From contig NZ_LLKN01000002.1 in the NCBI RefSeq assembly GCF_002900095.1, positions 1,116,001 through 1,180,000 on the forward strand: 64,000 nucleotides of DNA, given 5' to 3'. This document shows, piece after piece, positions 12,549-23,659 of the stretch; the first letter of the stretch is position 1; the number at the start of each line of letters is the position of its first letter. Under the pieces are notes generated by a model. It was not told the origin of the DNA and did not search any database. It saw only the letters and a program-made list of their open reading frames with translations. Made by a program: the position numbers and the translations under genes. This DNA comes from Salegentibacter mishustinae (GTDB taxonomy: Bacteria; Bacteroidota; Bacteroidia; Flavobacteriales; Flavobacteriaceae).

Positions 12549-13520
12549 TTATTTTTTCGCTTCAAAATATTGAAAAGCGTCTATAATATCCAGATAAACA
12601 CCGTCAAAATTGGCATTTACAATTTTACTTAGGTAAGAGTTTTCATTTCTGTAAATGAGATTTTTCCAATCCTGGTTCCAATAGGCTATCTTAAAATTGC
12701 CCGCCCAGTGTGGGTTTTCCTCTACCAACCAGTCAGGTTGATTGCTGTTCCAGGTTTCGTCCCAGTAATATCGGTAATCTTCTGCTTCTCCGATAGACAT
12801 ATAGGCGATTACAAGTCGATCACCGCCGTTCTTCTTCTTTTTTAGCTGCTGGATTTCTTCAGCGGTAAAAGTGTCTTCGTTAAAAAATAGATCTAAAATG
12901 ATAAGGTCATAATTGGTAAAAGCAAGTTCAGAAATAAGTTCCTGTTTGCTAGGATATTCAGCATAATTAAGAATGTATAGAAAGTTTTTAACCTTTGAAA
13001 GCTTATTGATATCTGCTTTGTTTTCGTTAAAAATTGGAGCGCCGGGGATGATATCTAATTCTCTTCTGGGCGATGCAAAAGAAATATAATTATTCTCTTC
13101 ATTAAGATTGTAGGAATGCTCTATGAATTCCGGAGTTTTACAATAATCTGTTACCAGTACTTTTTTACCACTGTTTTTAGCCGAATCCAGGTGTTTTTTT
13201 AAATAAGTATTATCTGGAGTGGGTGTAGGTTTATTGAATTCGGGATAACCATAAAAGAGGTCTTCCTGTCCCACGGCGTCTATTGCGTTTAAATAATCTA
13301 CAGCGGGTAGCTCGTTTTCCTCAAATATAAGTTCGATTCCATTTTGAGGAATAACCAGAAAATTCGAATTTTCAGCTTTTGCAGTTTCACTTATTTCAAT
13401 CACTAAACTCCGCATTTGATGACGATAATCTATTTTGTCTTCCATATCCTGTGCGGTATTTTCCTGGCAGGAAAACAATAAACAGCACAGAATCAAGCAG
13501 GGGAAACGGAGTAAATTCAT
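12549..13520 (-). CDS. GH114-like endo alpha-1,4-polygalactosaminidase lipoprotein
   Basis: A 323-residue protein with a lipoprotein signal (LLFSC, Cys about 18). It matches the TM1410/GH114-type TIM-barrel hydrolases: strand YDLIILDLF, YMSIGEAEDYRYYW with a likely catalytic Glu, and the late FDGVYLDIID strand with the second acid. GH114 enzymes cut alpha-1,4-linked galactosamine polymers, which are the backbone type of Pel. It is transcribed divergently from the pelF-like gene with 211 bases between them, so a role in trimming or degrading the Pel-like polymer at the cell surface is a fair inference. The protein ends 14 residues after the last motif. Confidence 0.8.
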   Translation of the reverse strand: MNLLRFPCLILCCLLFSCQENTAQDMEDKIDYRHQMRSLVIEISETAKAENSNFLVIPQNGIELIFEENELPAVDYLNAIDAVGQEDLFYGYPEFNKPTPTPDNTYLKKHLDSAKNSGKKVLVTDYCKTPEFIEHSYNLNEENNYISFASPRRELDIIPGAPIFNENKADINKLSKVKNFLYILNYAEYPSKQELISELAFTNYDLIILDLFFNEDTFTAEEIQQLKKKKNGGDRLVIAYMSIGEAEDYRYYWDETWNSNQPDWLVEENPHWAGNFKIAYWNQDWKNLIYRNENSYLSKIVNANFDGVYLDIIDAFQYFEAKK

Positions 13521-13682
13521 TTAACTATTCAAATTTCACACAAAGGTATATGAAATTGAAAAATGATAATTTTTTGATTTGATAAATTTTTATCTTAAAG
13601 ACTATATTTTTTTAGTCTAAAAGGTGTTTCATTTAAAATTCTTCAATTGAAATACTACATTTTAGAAATTTTGAGCTAGAAG

Positions 13683-13714
13683 TTGTCAAGTATCTGATTT
13701 TTAATATATTTTTG
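13683..13714 (+). promoter_or_regulatory. Putative promoter of the Pel-like operon
   Basis: A TTG at 13683-13685 and TATTTTTG at 13707-13714, 21 bases apart, fit the phylum's TTG / TAnnTTTG consensus and sit 17 bases before the pelF-like start codon. The surrounding 211-base gap also serves the divergent GH114-like gene. Confidence 0.55.
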
Positions 13715-13731
13715 GCGACAAACAAACTTTA

Positions 13732-15255
13732 ATGCCTAACCCCTCAGTATTGCTTATTTTAGAAGGTACCTACCCTTTTAACGGTGGTGGTGTGTCTACC
13801 TGGGCACATCATTTATGTAATAAGGTTAGTAATATAGATTTTAAGTTATATTCTATAAACGCTTCTTTTGAAAAAGAATCTAAGTACGAGCTTAGCGAAA
13901 ATATAAGCGAAGTTATTCAGGTGCCTCTCTGGACCCCAGATGAGCCGTACGATTATATTAGCTATGGAGAGGAATATTATAAAACGGTAGCTAAAAAGGA
14001 GTGGACTACCGATGAAGTGGTAGAACAAAAATTTATTCCACTTTTTAAAAGTCTACTGGAGTTTATTTATAGTGAAGACCAGAACATAGAAGATCTGGAT
14101 ATAATTTTTCACCAGTTGTGGTTTTATTTTGAAGATTACGATTATAAAGAAACCATAAGAAATAGGCACGTATGGACCGCTTATAGAGATACGCTTGCTA
14201 AATTTATTATAGGGGAGCGTAACCCTGATGCCTCTTTAATTGATATTACCATTGGCTTACGCTGGATTTATAGATTCCTAATTCCTCTGGCCATAGTGAA
14301 TATACCCAAAGTAGATGTGGCTCATTTAACGCTTAGTGGTTTCCCGCTTATTCCGGCACTTATTGCCAATTATAAGTATGGTACAAGGATTATGTTAACT
14401 GAACACGGGGTCTTTATTAGGGAAAGGTTATTGGCTATTAATAAATCTGAATACCCATACTTTTTAAAAAGTCTACTAATTCGCTTTTCTGAGGCTATTA
14501 CTCGTCTGGCTTATTATAAGGCTGATGTGATTATTTCAGTAACCACTTTTAATCAAAAATGGGAAAAATGGTATGGAGCCGATCCTAAAAAATTCAAGAT
14601 AATATATAACGGTATAGATCCAGAGGTTTTCAAACCAGGATCAAAACCGGCACATTTAAAGGGTATTCCAACCGTAGTGGCCTTAGCCCGGGTATTTGAA
14701 CTGAAAGATATTCTTACTATGATAAGATCTTGCGCGGTGGTGAAAGAAACTATCCCTAATGTTCAGTATTTGGTTTATGGAGATGACCAGGCCGTACCCG
14801 AATATACCCGGGAATGTCTTGATCTTATAGATGAATTAAGCTTGCAGGACAATTTTAAGTTTATGGGGCCAAAAAGTAATCCTCAGGAAATATTTTTGGA
14901 GGGAGACATTTCAATTTTAACATCCATCTCTGAAGGTTTCCCGTATACTGTTATAGAATCTATGAGTTGTGAGATTCCGGTGGTATCTACCGATGTTGGC
15001 GGAGTTAAAGAAGCGCTTGATGAAAGCTGCGGATTTACCTGTAAACCAAAAGATGCTGAAGAAATTGGAGGAAATGTGACCAAATTGCTTTTAAACGAAG
15101 AGCTTCGAAAAAAGATGGGGAAGAATGCAAGGGAAAAGGTTTTAAATAATTTTACTTTAAATAAGTTCATAGGGGAATATGAAGATGTTTACAGCGAAAT
15201 TATGAAGTCGAAAAAACCAAAACCAAAATTAGCTAAGATTAAAGATTTTTCCTGA
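13732..15255 (+). CDS. pelF: PelF-like family 4 glycosyltransferase
   Basis: The 507-residue cytoplasmic GT4 enzyme aligns by eye with PelF, which polymerises UDP-sugars into the Pel backbone. The N-terminus has the glycine-rich loop LEGTYPFNGGGVSTW. The middle contains TEHGVFIRERLL, a PelF signature, and NGIDPEVF. The C-terminal half has the E-x7-E motif in SEGFPYTVIESM followed by PVVSTDVGGVKEAL, which bind the nucleotide sugar. It is the first gene of a five-gene operon, with a 2-base gap to pelG. Acceptor and exact sugar cannot be read from sequence; GalNAc is expected from the PelF family. Confidence 0.92.
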   Translation: MPNPSVLLILEGTYPFNGGGVSTWAHHLCNKVSNIDFKLYSINASFEKESKYELSENISEVIQVPLWTPDEPYDYISYGEEYYKTVAKKEWTTDEVVEQKFIPLFKSLLEFIYSEDQNIEDLDIIFHQLWFYFEDYDYKETIRNRHVWTAYRDTLAKFIIGERNPDASLIDITIGLRWIYRFLIPLAIVNIPKVDVAHLTLSGFPLIPALIANYKYGTRIMLTEHGVFIRERLLAINKSEYPYFLKSLLIRFSEAITRLAYYKADVIISVTTFNQKWEKWYGADPKKFKIIYNGIDPEVFKPGSKPAHLKGIPTVVALARVFELKDILTMIRSCAVVKETIPNVQYLVYGDDQAVPEYTRECLDLIDELSLQDNFKFMGPKSNPQEIFLEGDISILTSISEGFPYTVIESMSCEIPVVSTDVGGVKEALDESCGFTCKPKDAEEIGGNVTKLLLNEELRKKMGKNAREKVLNNFTLNKFIGEYEDVYSEIMKSKKPKPKLAKIKDFS

Positions 15256-15257
15256 GA

Positions 15258-16871
15258 ATGACTAAAGATCAAATTAAAGCTATTGCCAAACTTGTGGTTG
15301 CGGTTAAAGAACGGAACGGAAAACCCGTAAATGTTTATGTAGTAGCTGCCACCATAGAATCTTTTGGAATTAGGGATGTAGATGTTAAAGAGGATTATGG
15401 TTTTGATGATATTTTTCAACTTTCAAAATATATTTACAAAGCTTACGATGCCATAACCCTGGCAAATCTTAAGAATAATAACCAGCGTATCGCTGAAGCG
15501 AAAACCTTTAAAAGACTCGCACTAACCGACTATATTACTACAAAAAATACCAAGCGATTTATTGTAGATTACAGTTCTGGTCTTATCCATTTATTTCCCG
15601 TATTTCTACAGGTAGTTTCCATTATTATGTTTGGGTTTTCGCTATGGACCTATTCAAAATTTAATAATCTACAATCAACAGCGGTAGTGTTGGGGGTAAT
15701 CTTTGGATTTATATTAAGTGGTGGCTTTGTTCAGGTTATTGGTAAACAGGTTTCTTACTATTGGTACAATAAGGATTACCATATGGCGAGTTATTCTACA
15801 AAAAAGATAATCATAAACGGGGTCCTTGTTATAATAGGATTTTTTATCCTATCGTTATTGGTTAATTTGGTGATTCCTCTTTACAGCTTTCTTTTCGTCA
15901 TAATTACGTTTTTGTATGCACTTTTCATTGGATTTTTACTCCTTGTTTTAGCACCATTATATGCGGTTAAACAAAGATGGATGCTCTCTTTAAGTGTCTT
16001 TATAGGAACCGTAGTAGCGCTATCTTTACACTGGTATACTCCAATGCATCCTTATTTTGTGCACTGGATTGGTATTCTTACCGCTTCTTTAATCTCCGTA
16101 GTATATCTTTACTTCTTTTATAAATACAAACTTCAGGAACATACAGCTGTAAAGAAGAAACCCAAGGTAATGCTTTCGTTATATAGAAATTTCAATTATT
16201 TCTTCTATGGGGCATTCCTGTTTGTTTTTGTTTTTATGGATAGATTGGTAGCCTGGTCTTCTACTTTAAATCGGGATATTCCTTATGTGATCTATTATGA
16301 AAAAGATTATGAGATAGGAATGGACCTGGCAATTTTAATTTTCTTTCTTCTGGGTGGGGTTATGGAATATGCGATCCATTCGTATATACGCCATATGGAT
16401 TTTCATCAATTAGATACAAAATACTCCCAGTTTCAAAGTTTTAATGACAAAATGAAAAAGATGTATTTTAAGCATCTGCGTCTTTTTGCGGTTAGTGCCC
16501 TGGGCATCGCTATATTTTTATACTTATTAATTACCCAGCCCTGGGGTTATTCGTCTGGTTTTGATGAAAGTCTAAGCGATTTAAGTATTAGGGTGTGTGT
16601 GCTAGGAAGTATAGGCTATTTGTTTTTAAGCCTGGGAATGCTTAATGTGCTGTACCTGTATACGTTAGGGCAACATAGGAAACCACTTGTTGCTATTATT
16701 ATTGCCTTTTTAGTTAATATAATTATTGGGATCCTGCTAAGTAGATGGATTTCTTATGAATATAGCGTAGTAGGAATGCTCTTAGGTTCCCTGGTTTTTA
16801 TGCTATTTACTACTAGAGAAACATACAATTTCTTTAAAAATCTGGATTATTACTATTATGCATCTTATTAA
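15258..16871 (+). CDS. pelG: PelG-like polysaccharide transporter with a long cytosolic N-terminus
   Basis: A 537-residue polytopic protein of the PelG branch of the MOP flippase superfamily, with about twelve membrane helices from residue 110 on. Segments typical of PelG are FFYGAFLFVFVFMDRLVAW and the motif YEIGMDLAIL. PelG forms with PelF the inner-membrane synthase/export unit. The usual Pseudomonas protein is about 456 residues; the extra length here is a charged, soluble N-terminal region of about 105 residues (MTKDQIKAIAKLV...), which I do not recognise. It overlaps the next gene by 14 bases. Confidence 0.9.
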   Translation: MTKDQIKAIAKLVVAVKERNGKPVNVYVVAATIESFGIRDVDVKEDYGFDDIFQLSKYIYKAYDAITLANLKNNNQRIAEAKTFKRLALTDYITTKNTKRFIVDYSSGLIHLFPVFLQVVSIIMFGFSLWTYSKFNNLQSTAVVLGVIFGFILSGGFVQVIGKQVSYYWYNKDYHMASYSTKKIIINGVLVIIGFFILSLLVNLVIPLYSFLFVIITFLYALFIGFLLLVLAPLYAVKQRWMLSLSVFIGTVVALSLHWYTPMHPYFVHWIGILTASLISVVYLYFFYKYKLQEHTAVKKKPKVMLSLYRNFNYFFYGAFLFVFVFMDRLVAWSSTLNRDIPYVIYYEKDYEIGMDLAILIFFLLGGVMEYAIHSYIRHMDFHQLDTKYSQFQSFNDKMKKMYFKHLRLFAVSALGIAIFLYLLITQPWGYSSGFDESLSDLSIRVCVLGSIGYLFLSLGMLNVLYLYTLGQHRKPLVAIIIAFLVNIIIGILLSRWISYEYSVVGMLLGSLVFMLFTTRETYNFFKNLDYYYYASY

Positions 16872-17670
16872 AATTCTTATGATAGCAGGCGCAATTTGTT
16901 TAAGCACTACACAGGCGGTTGCCCAGGAGCTTACTAAAGAAAAGCAGGTGCTTTTTACTTATGGTGATTTTTATCCTAAAGATGTTTCCGGTTATGAAAT
17001 AGTAGTTCTTGAAAGTGCTCATTTTGATAGTGAAGATATCGAGATTTTAAAACAGCAGAATAACACCGTTATAGGTTATATAAGTTTAGGGGAAGTCAAT
17101 GAATCTGCAGCTCATTTTCCGCAGGTAAAGGATTTCACCCTGGGAAAGAATGAGCTATGGAATAGTCATATTTTAGATATTGAAAATGAAGAAACAAGAG
17201 AATCTCTTATGAATATCTTCCAGTTTAATATGAAAAAAGGCCTTGATGGGATGTTTTTGGATAATATAGATAACTATACCGTATTTGGACCAACTCCAGA
17301 GAAAAAAGATGCTCTTTTAGACTTTTTACAAACTATTCATATTGTTTTTCCAGAGATTTATTTAATGCAAAATGCAGGTGTTTCAATAATTGAAGATACC
17401 CATCCCTATATAAATTCGGTTGCCAAAGAAAGTATAGCAACCGACTATAATTTTGAAAAAAATAAATATCAATTACGTGAGGAAGAAGTATTTTTTCAGC
17501 TCTTACAAGAACTTGAAAAAGCTAATAAAGAGTATGAAATTCCTATAATTTTAATTGAATATGCCGATACACAGAAATTGAAAAAAGCAATAAAGCAGCG
17601 ATTAAAAGAAAACCCCTGGACATATTTTATTGGGAAAATAGATTTGCAAAGTATTCCTGATAAAAACTGA
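16858..17670 (+). CDS. Secreted PelA-hydrolase-like glycoside hydrolase (GH114/GH166 type)
   Basis: A 270-residue protein with a signal peptide (about 1-22, ending AVA-QE). It has the TIM-barrel pattern of the N-terminal hydrolase domain of PelA: YEIVVLESAHF, VIGYISLGEVNES with a likely catalytic acid, then GLDGMFLDNIDNY and IYLMQNAG. PelA hydrolase (GH166) cleaves alpha-1,4-GalNAc bonds in Pel. In Pseudomonas this domain is fused to the deacetylase; here it is a stand-alone protein, with the deacetylase two genes later. The start codon lies inside the end of pelG, so translation is coupled. Confidence 0.85.
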   Translation: MHLIKILMIAGAICLSTTQAVAQELTKEKQVLFTYGDFYPKDVSGYEIVVLESAHFDSEDIEILKQQNNTVIGYISLGEVNESAAHFPQVKDFTLGKNELWNSHILDIENEETRESLMNIFQFNMKKGLDGMFLDNIDNYTVFGPTPEKKDALLDFLQTIHIVFPEIYLMQNAGVSIIEDTHPYINSVAKESIATDYNFEKNKYQLREEEVFFQLLQELEKANKEYEIPIILIEYADTQKLKKAIKQRLKENPWTYFIGKIDLQSIPDKN

Positions 17671-17678
17671 AATTTTAT

Positions 17679-19670
17679 ATGTTTTTAGAGCCCTACCTAC
17701 TTACCGGACCATTTAGGATAACACTGTTTTTTGTATTGATTTTGTTAATACATAGAATAATCTCTGCCCGAGTTTCTGCCCAAACGGCACTAAACTTTTT
17801 AATTCCTACCATTACACTAATTCTGGGAGCTGTGCTCTTAGGCGGCTTTATATTGGTGCTCACCAATACATTTGATCTATTTGTTATAATAAGTATTGTA
17901 ATTGGGCTTATTACCCTAACCTTTATGAATCTTAATTATACAAGATCAATAAAAAATCAGTTACAAAAGATTTATACGCGTACTATCTTGTATGCAGTAA
18001 TAAAACTTGAAAAAAGGGAGAATTTTCTGGATAGAGATAATATCATTAAACCAAGGTATAAACATAAAGAACAAAGATTATCTCAATATCATAAAAACTG
18101 GCAATTAGCTATTGGATTTTTACTACCGATTATGACCTATATTTCCAGAAGTTCTCTATTTAAGGAAGATGTTTATACACTTTCCTACAGTTGGTTCGCA
18201 AAGTTGAATTTGATAAACGGCTTGTCTTTAAAAAACTGGTTTCTTCATCCAGGGGAAATGATGGGGGATTATTTACTTATAAACCTCTATGCAAAATTAA
18301 CCCATATTACGAACGCGCAAGCTTTACAATCTTTTGGGCTACTGGAGTCAGCGCTACTTTCTTTAATTATTTATTGGGTAGTTTTTAAAATTTCAAGAAA
18401 ACATGCACCGGGAATACTGGCAGGTACTAGTTTTGCCTTGTTATATTCTTTTCTGCCAATAAACATAGATCTTTTAGCAGAACATAAGTCGGTTTTTACG
18501 GCTTTAATTATTGCAGTACCTACCATGCTTTTCAGTATTTATCCGCAAAGCTTTCGCTTTAATAGAAAATTGATCTTTGGCTGGTTCTTTATTCTTTTTG
18601 CTACTATCTTAATACTAGATCTTTTTGTGGGACTTTTAATTGTTCCAACATTCCTGCTTATCCTGTTCTTTTTTAAATTTCGGTATTATATGAAGCAAGT
18701 AAGCCAAATTCTCTTTGCCTATCTTTCTTCTGTAACTTTAATTGCTTTAATTTATGGAATAGCAGCATTTGTTAAACAGGAAAATTTTGGAGCATTTATC
18801 CTCTCAAATTTATTTTCTTTTGATGCCTATACTTATAATCCTAATCTGGTAGTTCCCTTTAAAGAGCTTATATATTATTATCAGGTTGCAGGTATCGTTT
18901 TTCTTTTGATTTCTATTTTTAATTATATCAAAAAACCGCATAAATGGCTTGCCAGCCTTATTTTTATCATTTTTATCAATGTATTATTTGCCTTATATCA
19001 TATAGATGAAGTTTTATTGGATTTGGATCTTTTAAGTCAGGTGTTATGTGTATTTATTCCTATTTTCTTCGGAATTATACTCAATGTGATCGTAAATATT
19101 TTTTCCATCTTCAAAACACAAAGCAGACTAAGCACAATAATAGAAGTTACCAGTGGTAGCGTAGTAATTTTGGCATTGGCAATTTTTACATTTCCACCTT
19201 CGGCTACTTTAAATTTTGATTCGGAAAAAACTGAAAATGTGGTTTTTGAAGCTTACTCCAAAATTCAATCGGCCAACCTACCTTATACTTATGCAGTGGT
19301 AAATTCTTTGCCTTACTTCAGCTTTAGTAATAACAGTCATTATTATTATAATTACGATTACTTTAATGACAGTTATATAGCACGGGATAGGAGATTCCAC
19401 AGGTATAAAAATAACCAGCAATATCTTCAGAGCAATCCAGATATAATTTTACCTGAAACTATGTTCGTTTTTATTTATAAGAATTTAGAGGAAAGCAATG
19501 TAGCTAAAAAGGAAATATTTAAAAGCCAACAGGCTTTAGCGCTAGAAAGGATCAACCTTTTAAAAGCTAAAGATAGAAATGTAAATATTTATTATGAGAG
19601 TGAAGATCTAAAGGTTTACCAAATAGAAAATAGGGAGCGAGCCAGCAATATTAATGAACTATTATTTTGA
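17679..19670 (+). CDS. Polytopic membrane protein of the Pel-like operon, family not recognised
   Basis: The 663-residue protein has two or three N-terminal membrane helices (about 10-85), a basic cytosolic stretch (about 90-140, with KLEKRENFLDRDN and KPRYKHKEQR), about eight more helices (about 145-500) and a soluble Tyr/Asn-rich C-terminal domain (about 500-663). The first large outside loop (SSLFKEDVYTLSYSWFAKLN ... HPGEMMGDYLLINLYAKL) recalls GT-C-type membrane glycosyltransferases, but this is a weak resemblance. It occupies the place where other Pel clusters have PelD and PelE. No GAF or degenerate GGDEF domain is seen. Its stop overlaps the next ATG (TGATG). Confidence 0.75.
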   Translation: MFLEPYLLTGPFRITLFFVLILLIHRIISARVSAQTALNFLIPTITLILGAVLLGGFILVLTNTFDLFVIISIVIGLITLTFMNLNYTRSIKNQLQKIYTRTILYAVIKLEKRENFLDRDNIIKPRYKHKEQRLSQYHKNWQLAIGFLLPIMTYISRSSLFKEDVYTLSYSWFAKLNLINGLSLKNWFLHPGEMMGDYLLINLYAKLTHITNAQALQSFGLLESALLSLIIYWVVFKISRKHAPGILAGTSFALLYSFLPINIDLLAEHKSVFTALIIAVPTMLFSIYPQSFRFNRKLIFGWFFILFATILILDLFVGLLIVPTFLLILFFFKFRYYMKQVSQILFAYLSSVTLIALIYGIAAFVKQENFGAFILSNLFSFDAYTYNPNLVVPFKELIYYYQVAGIVFLLISIFNYIKKPHKWLASLIFIIFINVLFALYHIDEVLLDLDLLSQVLCVFIPIFFGIILNVIVNIFSIFKTQSRLSTIIEVTSGSVVILALAIFTFPPSATLNFDSEKTENVVFEAYSKIQSANLPYTYAVVNSLPYFSFSNNSHYYYNYDYFNDSYIARDRRFHRYKNNQQYLQSNPDIILPETMFVFIYKNLEESNVAKKEIFKSQQALALERINLLKAKDRNVNIYYESEDLKVYQIENRERASNINELLF

Positions 19671-22600
19671 TGAGATTACAATTACCAATTAATTTATTAA
19701 AATATACTGCTTACCTGTTGCTTCTTATTGTTATGGGGTGCGCCGTAGATGTGGAAGATTCCAGAGAGGAAGAAGACCATCCAAGGGTTCTTTACGATAA
19801 AATGAGTAAGAACCCCCTGGTTACTTATATTCTTGAGCCTGGCAATGAGTTAAGCGTAAAAAATAGCAACCATATAAGAAAGACTCTTAATTATGCTAAA
19901 ATTCCTTATGGTGAAATAAACCGTGACAAATTTAATGAGCAGCCGGCAGTAGCAGCTTCGGTAAAAGTTATTGTTCTTTATGACCCCGCTCCGCTAAACG
20001 GAGATGCGATGAATTTTCTTATAAATTTTGTGGCTGAAGGCGGTCATATTTTTATTCCCAGCGTAGGAACAAATAAAAATTATGGATTTTTAGCCGGTGT
20101 AAAAGCTGATGCCAATTTTGAAATAAACACCACAGCTCAGGGATTTCTATTTAATTCAGACTTTATCCCGGCATTTAAAGGGAAGCATTATAAAAGCCTC
20201 ACTACACATTTTGGTTTGGAACAGAATAACTTTCGGGAGGATGTTGAGGTTCTGGCAACCTCTTTTTCAGAAGAAGATTATCCATTAATTATTAAAAACG
20301 AAATTGGAGCAGGTTCAGTTATTTCTTTTAATACCGAACAATTTTCAGAAAAACAGGAACGAGGGTTATTCTTTGCAGCTATTTTGCAAGGTTTAGAAGG
20401 AGTGCCTTATCCCGTAGCCAATGCCTCCAGTATTATGTTAGACGATTTTCCAGCTCCGCTTTACGATGCGAAAATGGAACCGGTACAATCTGAAATGGAT
20501 ATAAGCCAGGCGAATTTTTATTCTGATGTTTGGTGGGAAGATATGTTGAAGCTGGCAGAGGAAGAAGATATTGTGTATTCGGCTTATGTTTGCTTCGATT
20601 ATTCTAATCATACTTCCCCGCCATTTAACTTTCAGGAATGGGAGAGATCAATCTTAAATGGAGCAAATGGCGCTGATAAATTGATGAAATCAATAAAAAA
20701 TTCTGATCACGAAGTAGAACTGCACGGCTATAACCACGTTTCACTAACCCAAACAGAATGGCCAAATAAAAGCTATATGGGGCTAAGCCTGCAAGCGGTT
20801 AAAAAGCGCTGGGCCGCCCGTGATTATGGTAGATTGCCAGTTTCTTATGTGCCGCCTTCAAATATAATAGATAGTACGGGTTTTGTGGTTTTAGAAGAGA
20901 ATATACCCAGTATTATTTATAATGCCAGTATTTACCTTGGGGATTTTGAAGAAGGTGGAGGCCGTGAATTTGATCCTGAACCTTATAATTATCACTTTTT
21001 TAATTTCCCCAGGATTAGTAGTGGATATGCCATGAATTCCACCAGGGAGTTCAATCAGCAATCTCTATATCTTTATACCGGTATCTGGACGCATTTTATA
21101 CACCCCGATGACATTTACCAAATTCCGGGAGACGAACCTTTAGAAAGTGCAGGAGATTATACTTTACGTAATATAAATAGTTACGGTTGGCGAGTTTCAG
21201 AAGATGGTTCGCCCGGTTTGCTCCCAAGGTTTAGAAATTATATTCAGGAAGTAAAAGAAACCTTTCCGCTAATTCGGTTTTTAAAGGTTTCAGATGCGGC
21301 AAAAATCACCAAAAACTGGAGAGAAGATACTTATGAATTCTCAGAAACCGAAAATACTTTTAAGGTAGCAGCCCAGGCTGAAATTTCAGAGAATAACGAA
21401 AACTTTTGGTTTGCTTATGCATCTAAGGAAAAGCAGAGCAAGATGGCAGATTATTTAGGTAATAACAAGCTGAAATATACCACAACTGCGTTTCTGGATG
21501 GATTTCTTTTTAATATTCAGACTTCCAAAAAGCAGTTAAGTCTGCCTAAGTTTAAAGACGATAATTCGGGTAAGTTACTAAGTGCATTACTGCAGGATTA
21601 TAAAGCTTATCTTTTGGTAAAACCTTCAGAAAACTTTGAAGACAGTAATATATCTAAAGAAATTACTGAATTGAAGTCTAAAATTGCAGCAGGTGAAGAT
21701 TACAATCGGGAAGACTGGTTAGCGCTATTTCATTATTTGGGATGGGAAAATCGTCAAAATGAAATATGGCCATTACTTGAACAAAAATATAAAAAGGATA
21801 AATCTTCAGTATATGTAAAACTTTCTTCAGAATTTACAGCTCAAAGCGATTATCCAAATTTGGATACCAGAAAGCGTTGGATGCTGAGACAGATAGACCT
21901 AAATCCCGAGAATATAAAGCTTCGAAAAGATTTTATAGCATATTTTGGAAATGGGACCGAAGTTCAGTTAACTCGCGATGAATTGTTAGGGTTAATAAAT
22001 AATACCGAATCTCATGAAGATAGATTTAGTTATTTAGTGTTGCTTAACGAGAAATACCCCGAAGCTGCTTTTAATTTGGTAAAAGATATAGAACCCTGCC
22101 GGGAAGATTTTAAGCTTGCTGCATCATCTATTTCCTGGATCCTTGCTGATGCTAAAGAGTTTAAGCAAGCTATTTTATGGTCTAAATGCGGTGAAGAAAT
22201 TAGTGAAGAATCCGTAGATAATTGGCGCTTGCAATCGGGAGAATATGAGTTTTTAAAGGAAAAGAATTTTCCGCTTTATATAGAATATCTTATTGCTGAT
22301 AACGATAAAAAAGCAGCCAGGGAACTGCTGGAAATAGAAACCTGTAGAAAAGACCTTAAACGTTTAGCTCCCACCATTGCTTATACTTACGCCGGGCAGG
22401 GAAGTTTTAGAAAAGCACTGGAATGGTCTGCCTGTGCAAAAGATTTTCCTTTGGTAGAAAGAATGCAATGGTTTTATGCGCTAAAAAATTATAAAGAAAT
22501 AGAACGTTTATACGCTAATTATTCCGAAAAAAATAATCCGGAAGAAAAAGAAGCTATCCAGTCATTTATGGCCGAATACTATATGGGCCGCGGAGATATT

Positions 22601-23659
22601 GTTACCGCCTGGAGAATAGCCTCTAAATTGCCTAATTCAACCAATAAAGAGAGATTAAGAACACAGCTTAACAAAGACGTTATTTATTTAAATTCTGAAC
22701 AAAAACGGCGGTTGTTAAATGAATATCCTTCAATTTTTTACCCAGAAATTGCTGCGCAAATTGAGCAAGATCTCAGAATTACAGAGGGTGATTTTATTAG
22801 AATAGAAAGCAATATTATTAGTGATAGGTTAGATCCTACTTCTTTTGGTACTGAAGCTACTTATGGCCTTCGGGATAAGAAATTACATCAGCATCAATTT
22901 GGTTTGAGCCAGTATAAAGCTTACGCTATTCCTTTTCAGGAGGAATTTGAGAATAACATAGATGAACATTTATACGGCTTAATTTACAGGTTTAAATCGC
23001 GTGAAAGAATAGAAAAACTTAATTACGGTTTTGGCACTCGCCTGGAATTTAATGATGCCGGGAAGGCTTATCTTCATTTGCAAGCTTCAGCTTCTATTGC
23101 AAAAGATAGTTTGTTTAGTTCATTTCAAGTTTCAAGGAAACCGGCTATTACAGGACCCGCTTACGCCCTGGATATTTATCAAACCCAATTAAATATTTAC
23201 GAAGAACTTCAATTTAAAGAGAAATTCCAGGCTGTTCTCTACCTGGAGGGGAATCATTATAGCGACGATGTGCAAGATGTGCAGGCTTTAACCAGTATTT
23301 CTATGGATATTAAGCTGAATAAAAGATCGAAATTCAGACCTTATTCTGAACTATCGGGAATGCTAGGTAATTCCAGCAGACCCGGCGGGTATCCTTACTG
23401 GACTTTAGATGAGCGCTTATATGGCGGAATGGGTGTTGCTTATGAATATGAGAATAAACAGAATTTTTGGAAGATTAATCTGGATGCCGGATATTTTCTG
23501 GATACTTTTTCTGATGAGTTTCAGCGCTATCGCGGGAATGTGGTATGGCCGGTTTCAAAATATTTTCATTTTAATGCGCAGGCTGAATTTTATACGCTGA
23601 AAAACTTTTATTCTAACAACTTTACCTTCGGCCTAAAATATTTTCTAAAAGATAACTAA
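19670..23659 (+). CDS. Lipoprotein fusion: PelA-type deacetylase, helical repeats and outer-membrane beta-barrel (PelB-like)
   Basis: This 1329-residue protein starts at the ATG that overlaps the previous stop; a TTG one codon earlier is less likely. It has a lipobox (VMGC, Cys24), then a Rossmann-like segment (about 95-245, VIVLYDPAP ... EGGHIFIPSVG). A DUF2194/CE4-type deacetylase domain (about 250-560) shows metal-site motifs MLDD (Asp258, Asp259), HGYNH (His352, His356), YVPPSN and THFIH (His475, His478). A TPR-like helical region with repeated Cys-containing units covers about 680-1060. From about 1085 to the end, alternating aromatic strands ending GLKYFLKDN look like an outer-membrane barrel. 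This joins the PelA deacetylase with PelB functions in one chain. The 3' end overlaps the convergent ABC ATPase gene by 4 bases. Confidence 0.85.
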   Translation: MRLQLPINLLKYTAYLLLLIVMGCAVDVEDSREEEDHPRVLYDKMSKNPLVTYILEPGNELSVKNSNHIRKTLNYAKIPYGEINRDKFNEQPAVAASVKVIVLYDPAPLNGDAMNFLINFVAEGGHIFIPSVGTNKNYGFLAGVKADANFEINTTAQGFLFNSDFIPAFKGKHYKSLTTHFGLEQNNFREDVEVLATSFSEEDYPLIIKNEIGAGSVISFNTEQFSEKQERGLFFAAILQGLEGVPYPVANASSIMLDDFPAPLYDAKMEPVQSEMDISQANFYSDVWWEDMLKLAEEEDIVYSAYVCFDYSNHTSPPFNFQEWERSILNGANGADKLMKSIKNSDHEVELHGYNHVSLTQTEWPNKSYMGLSLQAVKKRWAARDYGRLPVSYVPPSNIIDSTGFVVLEENIPSIIYNASIYLGDFEEGGGREFDPEPYNYHFFNFPRISSGYAMNSTREFNQQSLYLYTGIWTHFIHPDDIYQIPGDEPLESAGDYTLRNINSYGWRVSEDGSPGLLPRFRNYIQEVKETFPLIRFLKVSDAAKITKNWREDTYEFSETENTFKVAAQAEISENNENFWFAYASKEKQSKMADYLGNNKLKYTTTAFLDGFLFNIQTSKKQLSLPKFKDDNSGKLLSALLQDYKAYLLVKPSENFEDSNISKEITELKSKIAAGEDYNREDWLALFHYLGWENRQNEIWPLLEQKYKKDKSSVYVKLSSEFTAQSDYPNLDTRKRWMLRQIDLNPENIKLRKDFIAYFGNGTEVQLTRDELLGLINNTESHEDRFSYLVLLNEKYPEAAFNLVKDIEPCREDFKLAASSISWILADAKEFKQAILWSKCGEEISEESVDNWRLQSGEYEFLKEKNFPLYIEYLIADNDKKAARELLEIETCRKDLKRLAPTIAYTYAGQGSFRKALEWSACAKDFPLVERMQWFYALKNYKEIERLYANYSEKNNPEEKEAIQSFMAEYYMGRGDIVTAWRIASKLPNSTNKERLRTQLNKDVIYLNSEQKRRLLNEYPSIFYPEIAAQIEQDLRITEGDFIRIESNIISDRLDPTSFGTEATYGLRDKKLHQHQFGLSQYKAYAIPFQEEFENNIDEHLYGLIYRFKSRERIEKLNYGFGTRLEFNDAGKAYLHLQASASIAKDSLFSSFQVSRKPAITGPAYALDIYQTQLNIYEELQFKEKFQAVLYLEGNHYSDDVQDVQALTSISMDIKLNKRSKFRPYSELSGMLGNSSRPGGYPYWTLDERLYGGMGVAYEYENKQNFWKINLDAGYFLDTFSDEFQRYRGNVVWPVSKYFHFNAQAEFYTLKNFYSNNFTFGLKYFLKDN

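Follow-up and report, generated by a model that had tools for sequence, protein, structure and literature searches.

Two described kinds of operon for the exopolysaccharide Pel serve here for comparison. A canonical Pel system, encoded by pelABCDEFG in Pseudomonas aeruginosa, has a PelF glycosyltransferase, a PelG transporter, a one-piece PelA combining hydrolase and deacetylase, a PelB-type exporter of tetratricopeptide repeats (TPRs) and a 16-strand barrel, the lipoprotein PelC as a ring subunit, PelE, and PelD, the receptor for the activating messenger cyclic diguanylate (c-di-GMP); its product is an alpha-1,4-linked polymer of N-acetylgalactosamine and galactosamine. In this species PelA is recovered together with PelB TPRs 9-14 on purification, whereas its hydrolase domain alone is not; an AlphaFold2 (AF2) model in the same paper places the PelA deacetylase on TPRs 9-15 and a mixed alpha/beta domain on TPRs 13-19 (PMC12022489). 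A 16-strand barrel is common to PelB, BcsC and PgaA (PMC12141448). In the Gram-positive pelDEADAFG operon of Bacillus cereus (PMC7112168, PMC13254593), the hydrolase is free and the deacetylase PelADA, a DUF2194 protein, has its own transmembrane anchor and is accompanied by PelD and PelE. PelADA de-N-acetylates oligomers of N-acetylgalactosamine (GalNAc), and its catalytic residues are D262, D263, an HxxxH pair, P405, R458, H488 and D491 (PMC13254593, published in 2026). Here we describe a five-gene Pel-like operon of Salegentibacter mishustinae (Bacteroidota) and compare it with these systems. It lies in a stretch of 64,000 nucleotides, hereafter the window (contig NZ_LLKN01000002.1, C2:1116001-1180000, of a 3.82-Mb genome).

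We conclude that the operon probably encodes a variant Pel machinery for exopolysaccharide, which in this analysis turned up only in Bacteroidota, that does without PelD, has no PelE or PelC visible in the operon and would work by the steps proposed below. It is not a member of the canonical class, because a one-piece PelA, PelD and a source of c-di-GMP were each tested for and not found; we rate it a variant of the Pel kind. With P. aeruginosa it shares PelF, PelG, a PelA-type hydrolase, a metal-type deacetylase and an exporter of TPRs and a 16-strand barrel. It differs in that hydrolase and deacetylase are on separate proteins, the deacetylase is fused to the exporter and is nearest to PelADA, PelD is missing from the genome, PelC and PelE are not seen in the operon, the host has no GGDEF domain, PelG carries an N-terminal domain, and a membrane protein resembling the GT-C class of glycosyltransferases is added. 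The free hydrolase and the DUF2194 deacetylase, with the same catalytic residues, are common to the Gram-positive operon, whereas the deacetylase here is part of an outer-membrane exporter.

All six open reading frames described here in the initial annotation of the window were confirmed, one on the minus strand and five on the plus strand. The five plus-strand genes span 13732-23659 and are separated, in order, by a gap of 2, an overlap of 14, a gap of 8 and an overlap of 4 bases. The features, with lengths in amino acids (aa), are:

12549-13520, minus strand: divergent, putative lipoprotein, a circularly permuted TM1410/GH191-type glycosidase homologue, 323 aa
13521-13731, no strand: divergent intergenic region of 211 base pairs, presumed operon promoter from the gene layout alone
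13732-15255, plus strand: PelF-type glycosyltransferase of family GT4, 507 aa (NCBIfam PelF NF038011, PF11997)
15258-16871, plus strand: PelG-type inner-membrane transporter, 537 aa (PF16933)
15258-15512, plus strand: N-terminal, presumably cytoplasmic extension of PelG, residues about 1-85
16858-17670, plus strand: PelA-hydrolase (GH114/GH166-like) homologue, presumed periplasmic, 270 aa (PF03537)
17679-19670, plus strand: multi-spanning membrane protein predicted to have a GT-C fold, with an alpha/beta domain at its C-terminus, 663 aa
19667-23659, plus strand: putative outer-membrane lipoprotein, a fusion of deacetylase, helical repeats and beta-barrel, 1330 aa
19814-21436, plus strand: PelADA/DUF2194 region of the fusion, residues about 50-590, an N-terminal alpha/beta/alpha part and a carbohydrate-esterase domain
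21566-22786, plus strand: TPR-like helical scaffold of the fusion, residues about 634-1040, predicted from the AF2 model and fold match
22793-23644, plus strand: predicted C-terminal 16-strand beta-barrel of the fusion, residues about 1043-1326, from the AF2 model and fold match

The fusion protein carries much of the argument. Its residues 63-587 match PF09960 (DUF2194) at 229.7 bits against a cut-off of 30.4, a PDB search finds B. cereus PelADA (9ZAU) at E 9e-42, and residues 50-485 align with it at E 2.9e-42. The counterparts of the PelADA catalytic residues, D259, D260, H353, H357, P397, R449, H479 and D482, are invariant in 81/81 sequences, the H479-D482 stretch being aligned as well, so that the Asp-His-His metal site and the catalytic Asp, Arg, His and Asp of the PelADA type are all present. 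The AF2 model (residues 231-1330, 45 sequences, pLDDT 84.6) shows the esterase domain, a run of 25 repeat helices and, last, 16 strands. Polysaccharide exporters take all five top places among PDB folds: BcsC first (9b8a, 9b8h, 6tzk), 4y25, and the PelBC chain of 9h80. For the barrel, 4y25 reaches a TMt of 0.73 and PelBC 9h80_M an E of 4e-7. The title of 4y25 describes a polysaccharide outer-membrane secretin, which we take to be PgaA. Helical repeats and a 16-strand barrel are thus what the protein shares with BcsC, PgaA and PelB; none of the matched entries is titled with a deacetylase. The predicted structure supplies the PelB-type exporter of canonical Pel, yet fused to the deacetylase. 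A lipobox-like motif, judged by eye, makes the fusion a putative lipoprotein, and its Cys25 is aligned in 74/81 sequences. By analogy with P. aeruginosa, the fusion may make covalent the docking of deacetylase on PelB that is non-covalent there, with the hydrolase staying free.

That free hydrolase, of 270 aa with a hydrophobic N-terminus in a hydropathy scan, matches PF03537 (63.7 bits) and PelA in the PDB (E 9e-19; 9cgy/5tcb, about 1e-18). Its motif residues E79, D135, D138 and E191 are invariant in 80/80 sequences, one row fewer than elsewhere since the hydrolase gene of locus L042 is split. The stand-alone PelA-like hydrolase and the transfer of the deacetylase onto PelB, both proposed in the initial annotation, are borne out by these matches. 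We do not count the split PelA itself as a new feature: it is known in Gram-positives (PMC7112168) and is also seen in a Cetobacterium cluster.

PelF, as in canonical Pel, passes both NCBIfam PelF NF038011 (174.7 bits, cut-off 100) and PF11997 (181.9 bits, cut-off 23.3). Residues E401 and E409, which we assign to the EX7E motif, are invariant in 81/81 sequences. PelG is placed by PF16933 and has 11 hydrophobic segments in a simple hydropathy scan, with a domain that canonical PelG does not have: 106 residues precede the equivalent point, against 21-27 in five comparison PelGs. The extension (about 85 residues) matched no named family. In a search of nine sequences its profile found a Streptomyces protein well (E 9.5e-8) and a Thermus protein (0.009) and two Deinococcus proteins (0.02, 0.04) weakly, and ranked canonical PelG last, at E 0.55 or more. 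The extension is thus common to PelG-like proteins of two other phyla, strongly in one protein and weakly in three. We propose that it takes over from PelD and PelE in docking PelF.

The initial annotation had staked its reading on two things, the identity of the GT4 enzyme and the transporter as PelF and PelG and the joint conservation of the five genes. Profiles do place the GT4 enzyme in PelF and the transporter in PelG, and the genes do stay together. Among 148 Bacteroidota genomes, PF09960 above its cut-off and PF11997 select an identical set of 15; matches to DUF2194 under the cut-off (five additional genomes, three sites in the host) are left uncounted. A profile of the membrane protein, built from those 15 genomes, finds the same 15 and no others. 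The window and the other 14 loci all have the order PelF, PelG, hydrolase, membrane protein, fusion, with a split hydrolase gene and a short PelG (435 aa) in L042. In a scan of named genomes that kept the best 80 of 356 PelF relatives, leaving out the other 276, 66 of the 80 loci have all five genes in this order and on a single strand. The remaining 14 comprise 13 truncated at a contig edge and L114, in which the hydrolase gene is broken. The genera include Salegentibacter, Christiangramia, Mesonia, Flavobacterium, Maribacter, Cellulophaga, Aquimarina and Roseivirga, and the PelF of the window is 91% identical to that of Salegentibacter holothuriorum. The operon genomes are related, and the locus counts are not independent events.

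In the PelF tree of 60 rows (39 of this class, 12 PelF2 and 9 others), the class forms one side of a single branch with support 100/99. It comprises the window, the 14 further loci of the 148-genome survey and 24 loci taken from the 66 complete ones; the midpoint root serves for drawing only. The class joins four PelFs from plasmids of Deinococcus, Thermus and Streptomyces at 100/100 and is placed away from the PelFs of pelABCDEFG Proteobacteria, Sulfitobacter and Cetobacterium. Within the class, four Roseivirga PelFs (L096, L099, L106 and L108, of five Roseivirga loci) nest in the Flavobacteriaceae part. This placement, which depends on forks with only partial support, suggests that the operon may have spread horizontally among Bacteroidota.

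Of 34 plasmid records with a PelF match, nine were looked at. The plasmid clusters that hold the four nearest PelFs (L044, L045, L128, L131) share with our operon the PelF group, the PelG extension and a GH114-type hydrolase, and no PelD or PelE is annotated in them. They differ in using an Agd3/CE18-type deacetylase, not DUF2194, and the profile of our membrane protein matches none of 18 tested proteins of the Deinococcus, Thermus and Streptomyces clusters. Their "hypothetical" proteins of 700-800 aa, considered as relatives of the membrane protein, were rejected: they are Agd3/CE18-like wherever a family matched. In Streptomyces the Agd3/CE18-type match lies under the Pfam cut-off. The four clusters resemble a bacterial counterpart of the fungal galactosaminogalactan pathway.

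Several observations bear on c-di-GMP. No GGDEF domain was found in the host genome, while 8 of 14 control genomes match, and 13 of the 15 operon genomes likewise lack one. The PelD model PF16963 has no match in 15/15 operon genomes and matches 3/3 canonical control records. The operon contains no GAF-like gene and shows no PelE candidate, in an inspection that used no PelE profile; nor is a PelC gene seen in the operon, where alone PelC was looked for. Judged by GGDEF counts, canonical activation by c-di-GMP appears to be missing, and gene content suggests that most hosts have no c-di-GMP input. The initial annotation had noted the absence of PelD, which holds across the host genome. Its further suggestion of a distinct Bacteroidota class working without c-di-GMP input fits the host, with neither GGDEF nor PelD, but may not extend to the 2 of 15 operon genomes that have GGDEF domains. 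Independence from c-di-GMP would not be unique among Pel systems: it has already been inferred for Streptococcus intermedius, which has a PelD without GGDEF and belongs to a group without known diguanylate cyclases (PMC12345266).

The 663-aa protein was listed in the initial annotation as an unknown membrane protein, and it indeed matched no Pfam or NCBIfam model at E up to 1; what can now be added is a predicted fold. Its AF2 model (46 sequences; pLDDT 79.8, pTM 0.83) is GT-C-like. As for the fusion, near-copies were dropped from the alignment used for modelling, which holds no rows from the 14 loci of the 148-genome survey. Foldseek ranks 1-19 are all GT-C enzymes: oligosaccharyltransferase complexes (the chain assumed to be STT3 from PDB entry titles), PglB, DPY19, ALG3/9/12, ArnT and AftA. 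Beyond rank 19 the list is mainly noise, with probability 0.16 or less, save for more GT-C entries, AftB and Pmt4. By our reading of the helix order, without superposition, D164 would lie in the first outer loop and is a putative GT-C catalytic acid. The predicted fold is what the protein has in common with GT-C enzymes; it differs from them in that no sequence similarity was found and the putative acid is not universal. We know of no GT-C protein in any described pel operon, and the passages of the Pel literature covered make no mention of one.

What this protein does bears directly on the product. Tentatively, the operon could make a decorated or branched amino-sugar polymer rather than plain Pel, the GT-C protein adding a sugar from a polyprenyl-phosphate donor at the periplasmic face. 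GT-C enzymes use lipid-linked donors, they hold every one of the first 19 Foldseek ranks, the gene stands between hydrolase and exporter in 66/66 complete loci, and R157, W172, D448 and H554 are invariant in 81/81 sequences. Arguing the other way, Asp164 is kept in only 69/81, no GT-C match appears at the sequence level, and no gene for a donor synthase is present in the operon. It is possible, though less likely than not, that Bacteroidota have a separate, c-di-GMP-free class of Pel-like synthases, with the deacetylase in the export channel and a periplasmic GT-C protein decorating or branching the chain, and hence a cationic polymer chemically unlike Pel.

It is also possible, if not favored, that the membrane protein, though related to GT-C enzymes, is catalytically idle and acts as an inner-membrane scaffold in place of PelD and PelE. 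This would fit the absence of PelD from 15/15 genomes, the lack of any PelE-like gene seen in the operon, and the loss of the putative first-loop acid in 12 of 81 rows. The invariance of several polar residues speaks against an idle protein. The Deinococcus, Thermus and Streptomyces PelF-PelG clusters also count against the scaffold: they have no annotated PelD or PelE, nor this protein among those tested, so a replacement for PelD and PelE is not obligatory. Very unlikely is an ordinary split-PelA pel operon, as in Gram-positives or Fusobacterium, whose PelD and PelE have diverged beyond recognition. In its favor, DUF2194, a GH-type hydrolase, PelF and PelG occur together in Cetobacterium, and genes annotated alike, known from annotations only, occur in F. 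nucleatum (PMC9848294). Against it, the Cetobacterium cluster includes a GAF protein, and its DUF2194 protein (609 aa) is free, whereas here the deacetylase is fused in 66/66 complete loci, the operon has no GAF gene, PelG has its extra domain and PelF groups away from that of Cetobacterium. The Fusobacterium and Cetobacterium clusters were rejected as members of the class, given the GAF protein and the free DUF2194 protein of Cetobacterium.

We return to our preferred reading, a Pel-kind machine without PelD, against which a number of points weigh. PelG exceeds the PF16933 cut-off by a modest margin of about 4 bits (33.2 against 29), no NCBIfam PelG model matched it in the NCBIfam scan, and a profile built on the PelGs of this class fell short of E 1e-5 against those of L043, L046 and L047. 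The PelF tree gave long-branch warnings, mainly for the outside and PelF2 rows. With a pTM of 0.44, the fusion model is trustworthy for single domains and unreliable for their mutual arrangement. For the membrane protein, global TM-scores are low (0.30-0.46 over Foldseek ranks 1-19), profile searches of PDB sequences gave no GT-C match at E up to 10, and position 164 is Asn in 11 and Ser in one of the 81 sequences. Since the PelD model failed to detect the GAF-type protein of Cetobacterium, it could also overlook a strongly diverged PelD elsewhere in these genomes. Both genomes of lineage f10 have six GGDEF matches each, and the operons of lineages f10 and f21 carry a protein with an HD_5 domain (seen in L031), so c-di-GMP may matter there. 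The operon has no gene for a UDP-GalNAc epimerase, and a cationic GalNAc-type polymer is so far only its putative product.

The machine may work as follows, in an order that is itself presumed. PelF would polymerize a UDP-hexosamine, probably UDP-GalNAc, in the cytoplasm; this substrate could be supplied by a galE-type epimerase encoded elsewhere in the host genome (414.7 bits, cut-off 262.3). PelG, bound to PelF by way of its additional N-terminal domain, would move the chain across the inner membrane, at whose periplasmic face the GT-C-like protein could work on the chain or brace it. The fusion would then de-N-acetylate the chain with its own PelADA-type domain and guide the resulting cationic polymer over the repeats to the barrel of the same protein. 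Trimming or release of the polymer may fall to the free PelA-type hydrolase and, in loci that have it, to the permuted GH191-type protein. Control in most hosts would not run through c-di-GMP.

The gene divergent from the operon was described in the initial annotation as encoding a second GH114-like lipoprotein. Its orientation is as claimed, and lipobox-like motifs judged by eye keep "lipoprotein" a putative label; the family is better given as TIGR01370/TM1410, now GH191. Sequence match and active-site residues agree with GH191, the active-site motifs being invariant in 23/23 sequences, and the score (175.2 bits) falls just below the TIGR01370 cut-off of 181.25, which we attribute to swapped halves. 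The alignments show the protein to be circularly permuted relative to TM1410/GH191, with the C-terminal half matching the N-terminal half of the enzyme and the reverse: residues 199-320 align with TM1410 23-139, and residues 34-90, weakly, with 151-203. Against a Thermus homologue the halves also align swapped (E 2e-16 and 4e-11), and the protein is collinear with the hydrolase of the Cetobacterium pel cluster, which has the same permuted order. The portion of the GH191 paper covered (PMC12054363) contains no word starting "permut". The gene is optional, being found in 18 of the 66 complete loci with a profile of three sequences. In Salegentibacter it is divergent; Maribacter and Cellulophaga have it upstream of pelF, in the same orientation.

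Some loci carry further genes. In f10 (two genomes) and f21 (ten) a gene for a protein of 518-547 aa is inserted after PelG, with HD_5 in the scanned L031; we take it to be kin to HD-GYP proteins, and in the five examined no GYP motif stands at the expected place. The ten f21 genomes, without GGDEF, still keep this protein. Upstream, the f10 and f21 loci (L031-L042) have a second, shorter PelF-like GT4 (393-412 aa). The f21 loci also have kinase-receiver and receiver genes upstream and DUF2752 and TM2 genes downstream, families that were scanned in L031 only. A gene of about 510 aa upstream of pelF in many Flavobacterium loci was set aside as a neighbor; its N-terminus reads helicase-like.

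We found no description of the operon in the open-access Pel literature, a search for which subscription papers and preprints were mostly out of scope and which is not proof of novelty. The string "bacteroid" does not occur in the main texts, supplements excluded, of two Pel surveys of 2020 (PMC7112194, PMC7112168). The words PelF, PelG and Bacteroidetes do occur in a paper on phylum KSB1 (PMC9012183), whose content falls outside the scope of this negative.

At the strength given above, the operon extends Pel-type machinery to Bacteroidota, a phylum that the main texts of those two surveys do not name. The natural fusion of deacetylase and exporter is an independent argument that the PelA deacetylase works docked on PelB, and it offers a single protein in which coupled modification and export can be studied. 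Hosts free of GGDEF make it testable how PelF and PelG run without PelD and c-di-GMP, for which the N-terminal domain of PelG is a candidate. The GT-C-like partner, for its part, predicts further sugars on some Pel-like polymers.

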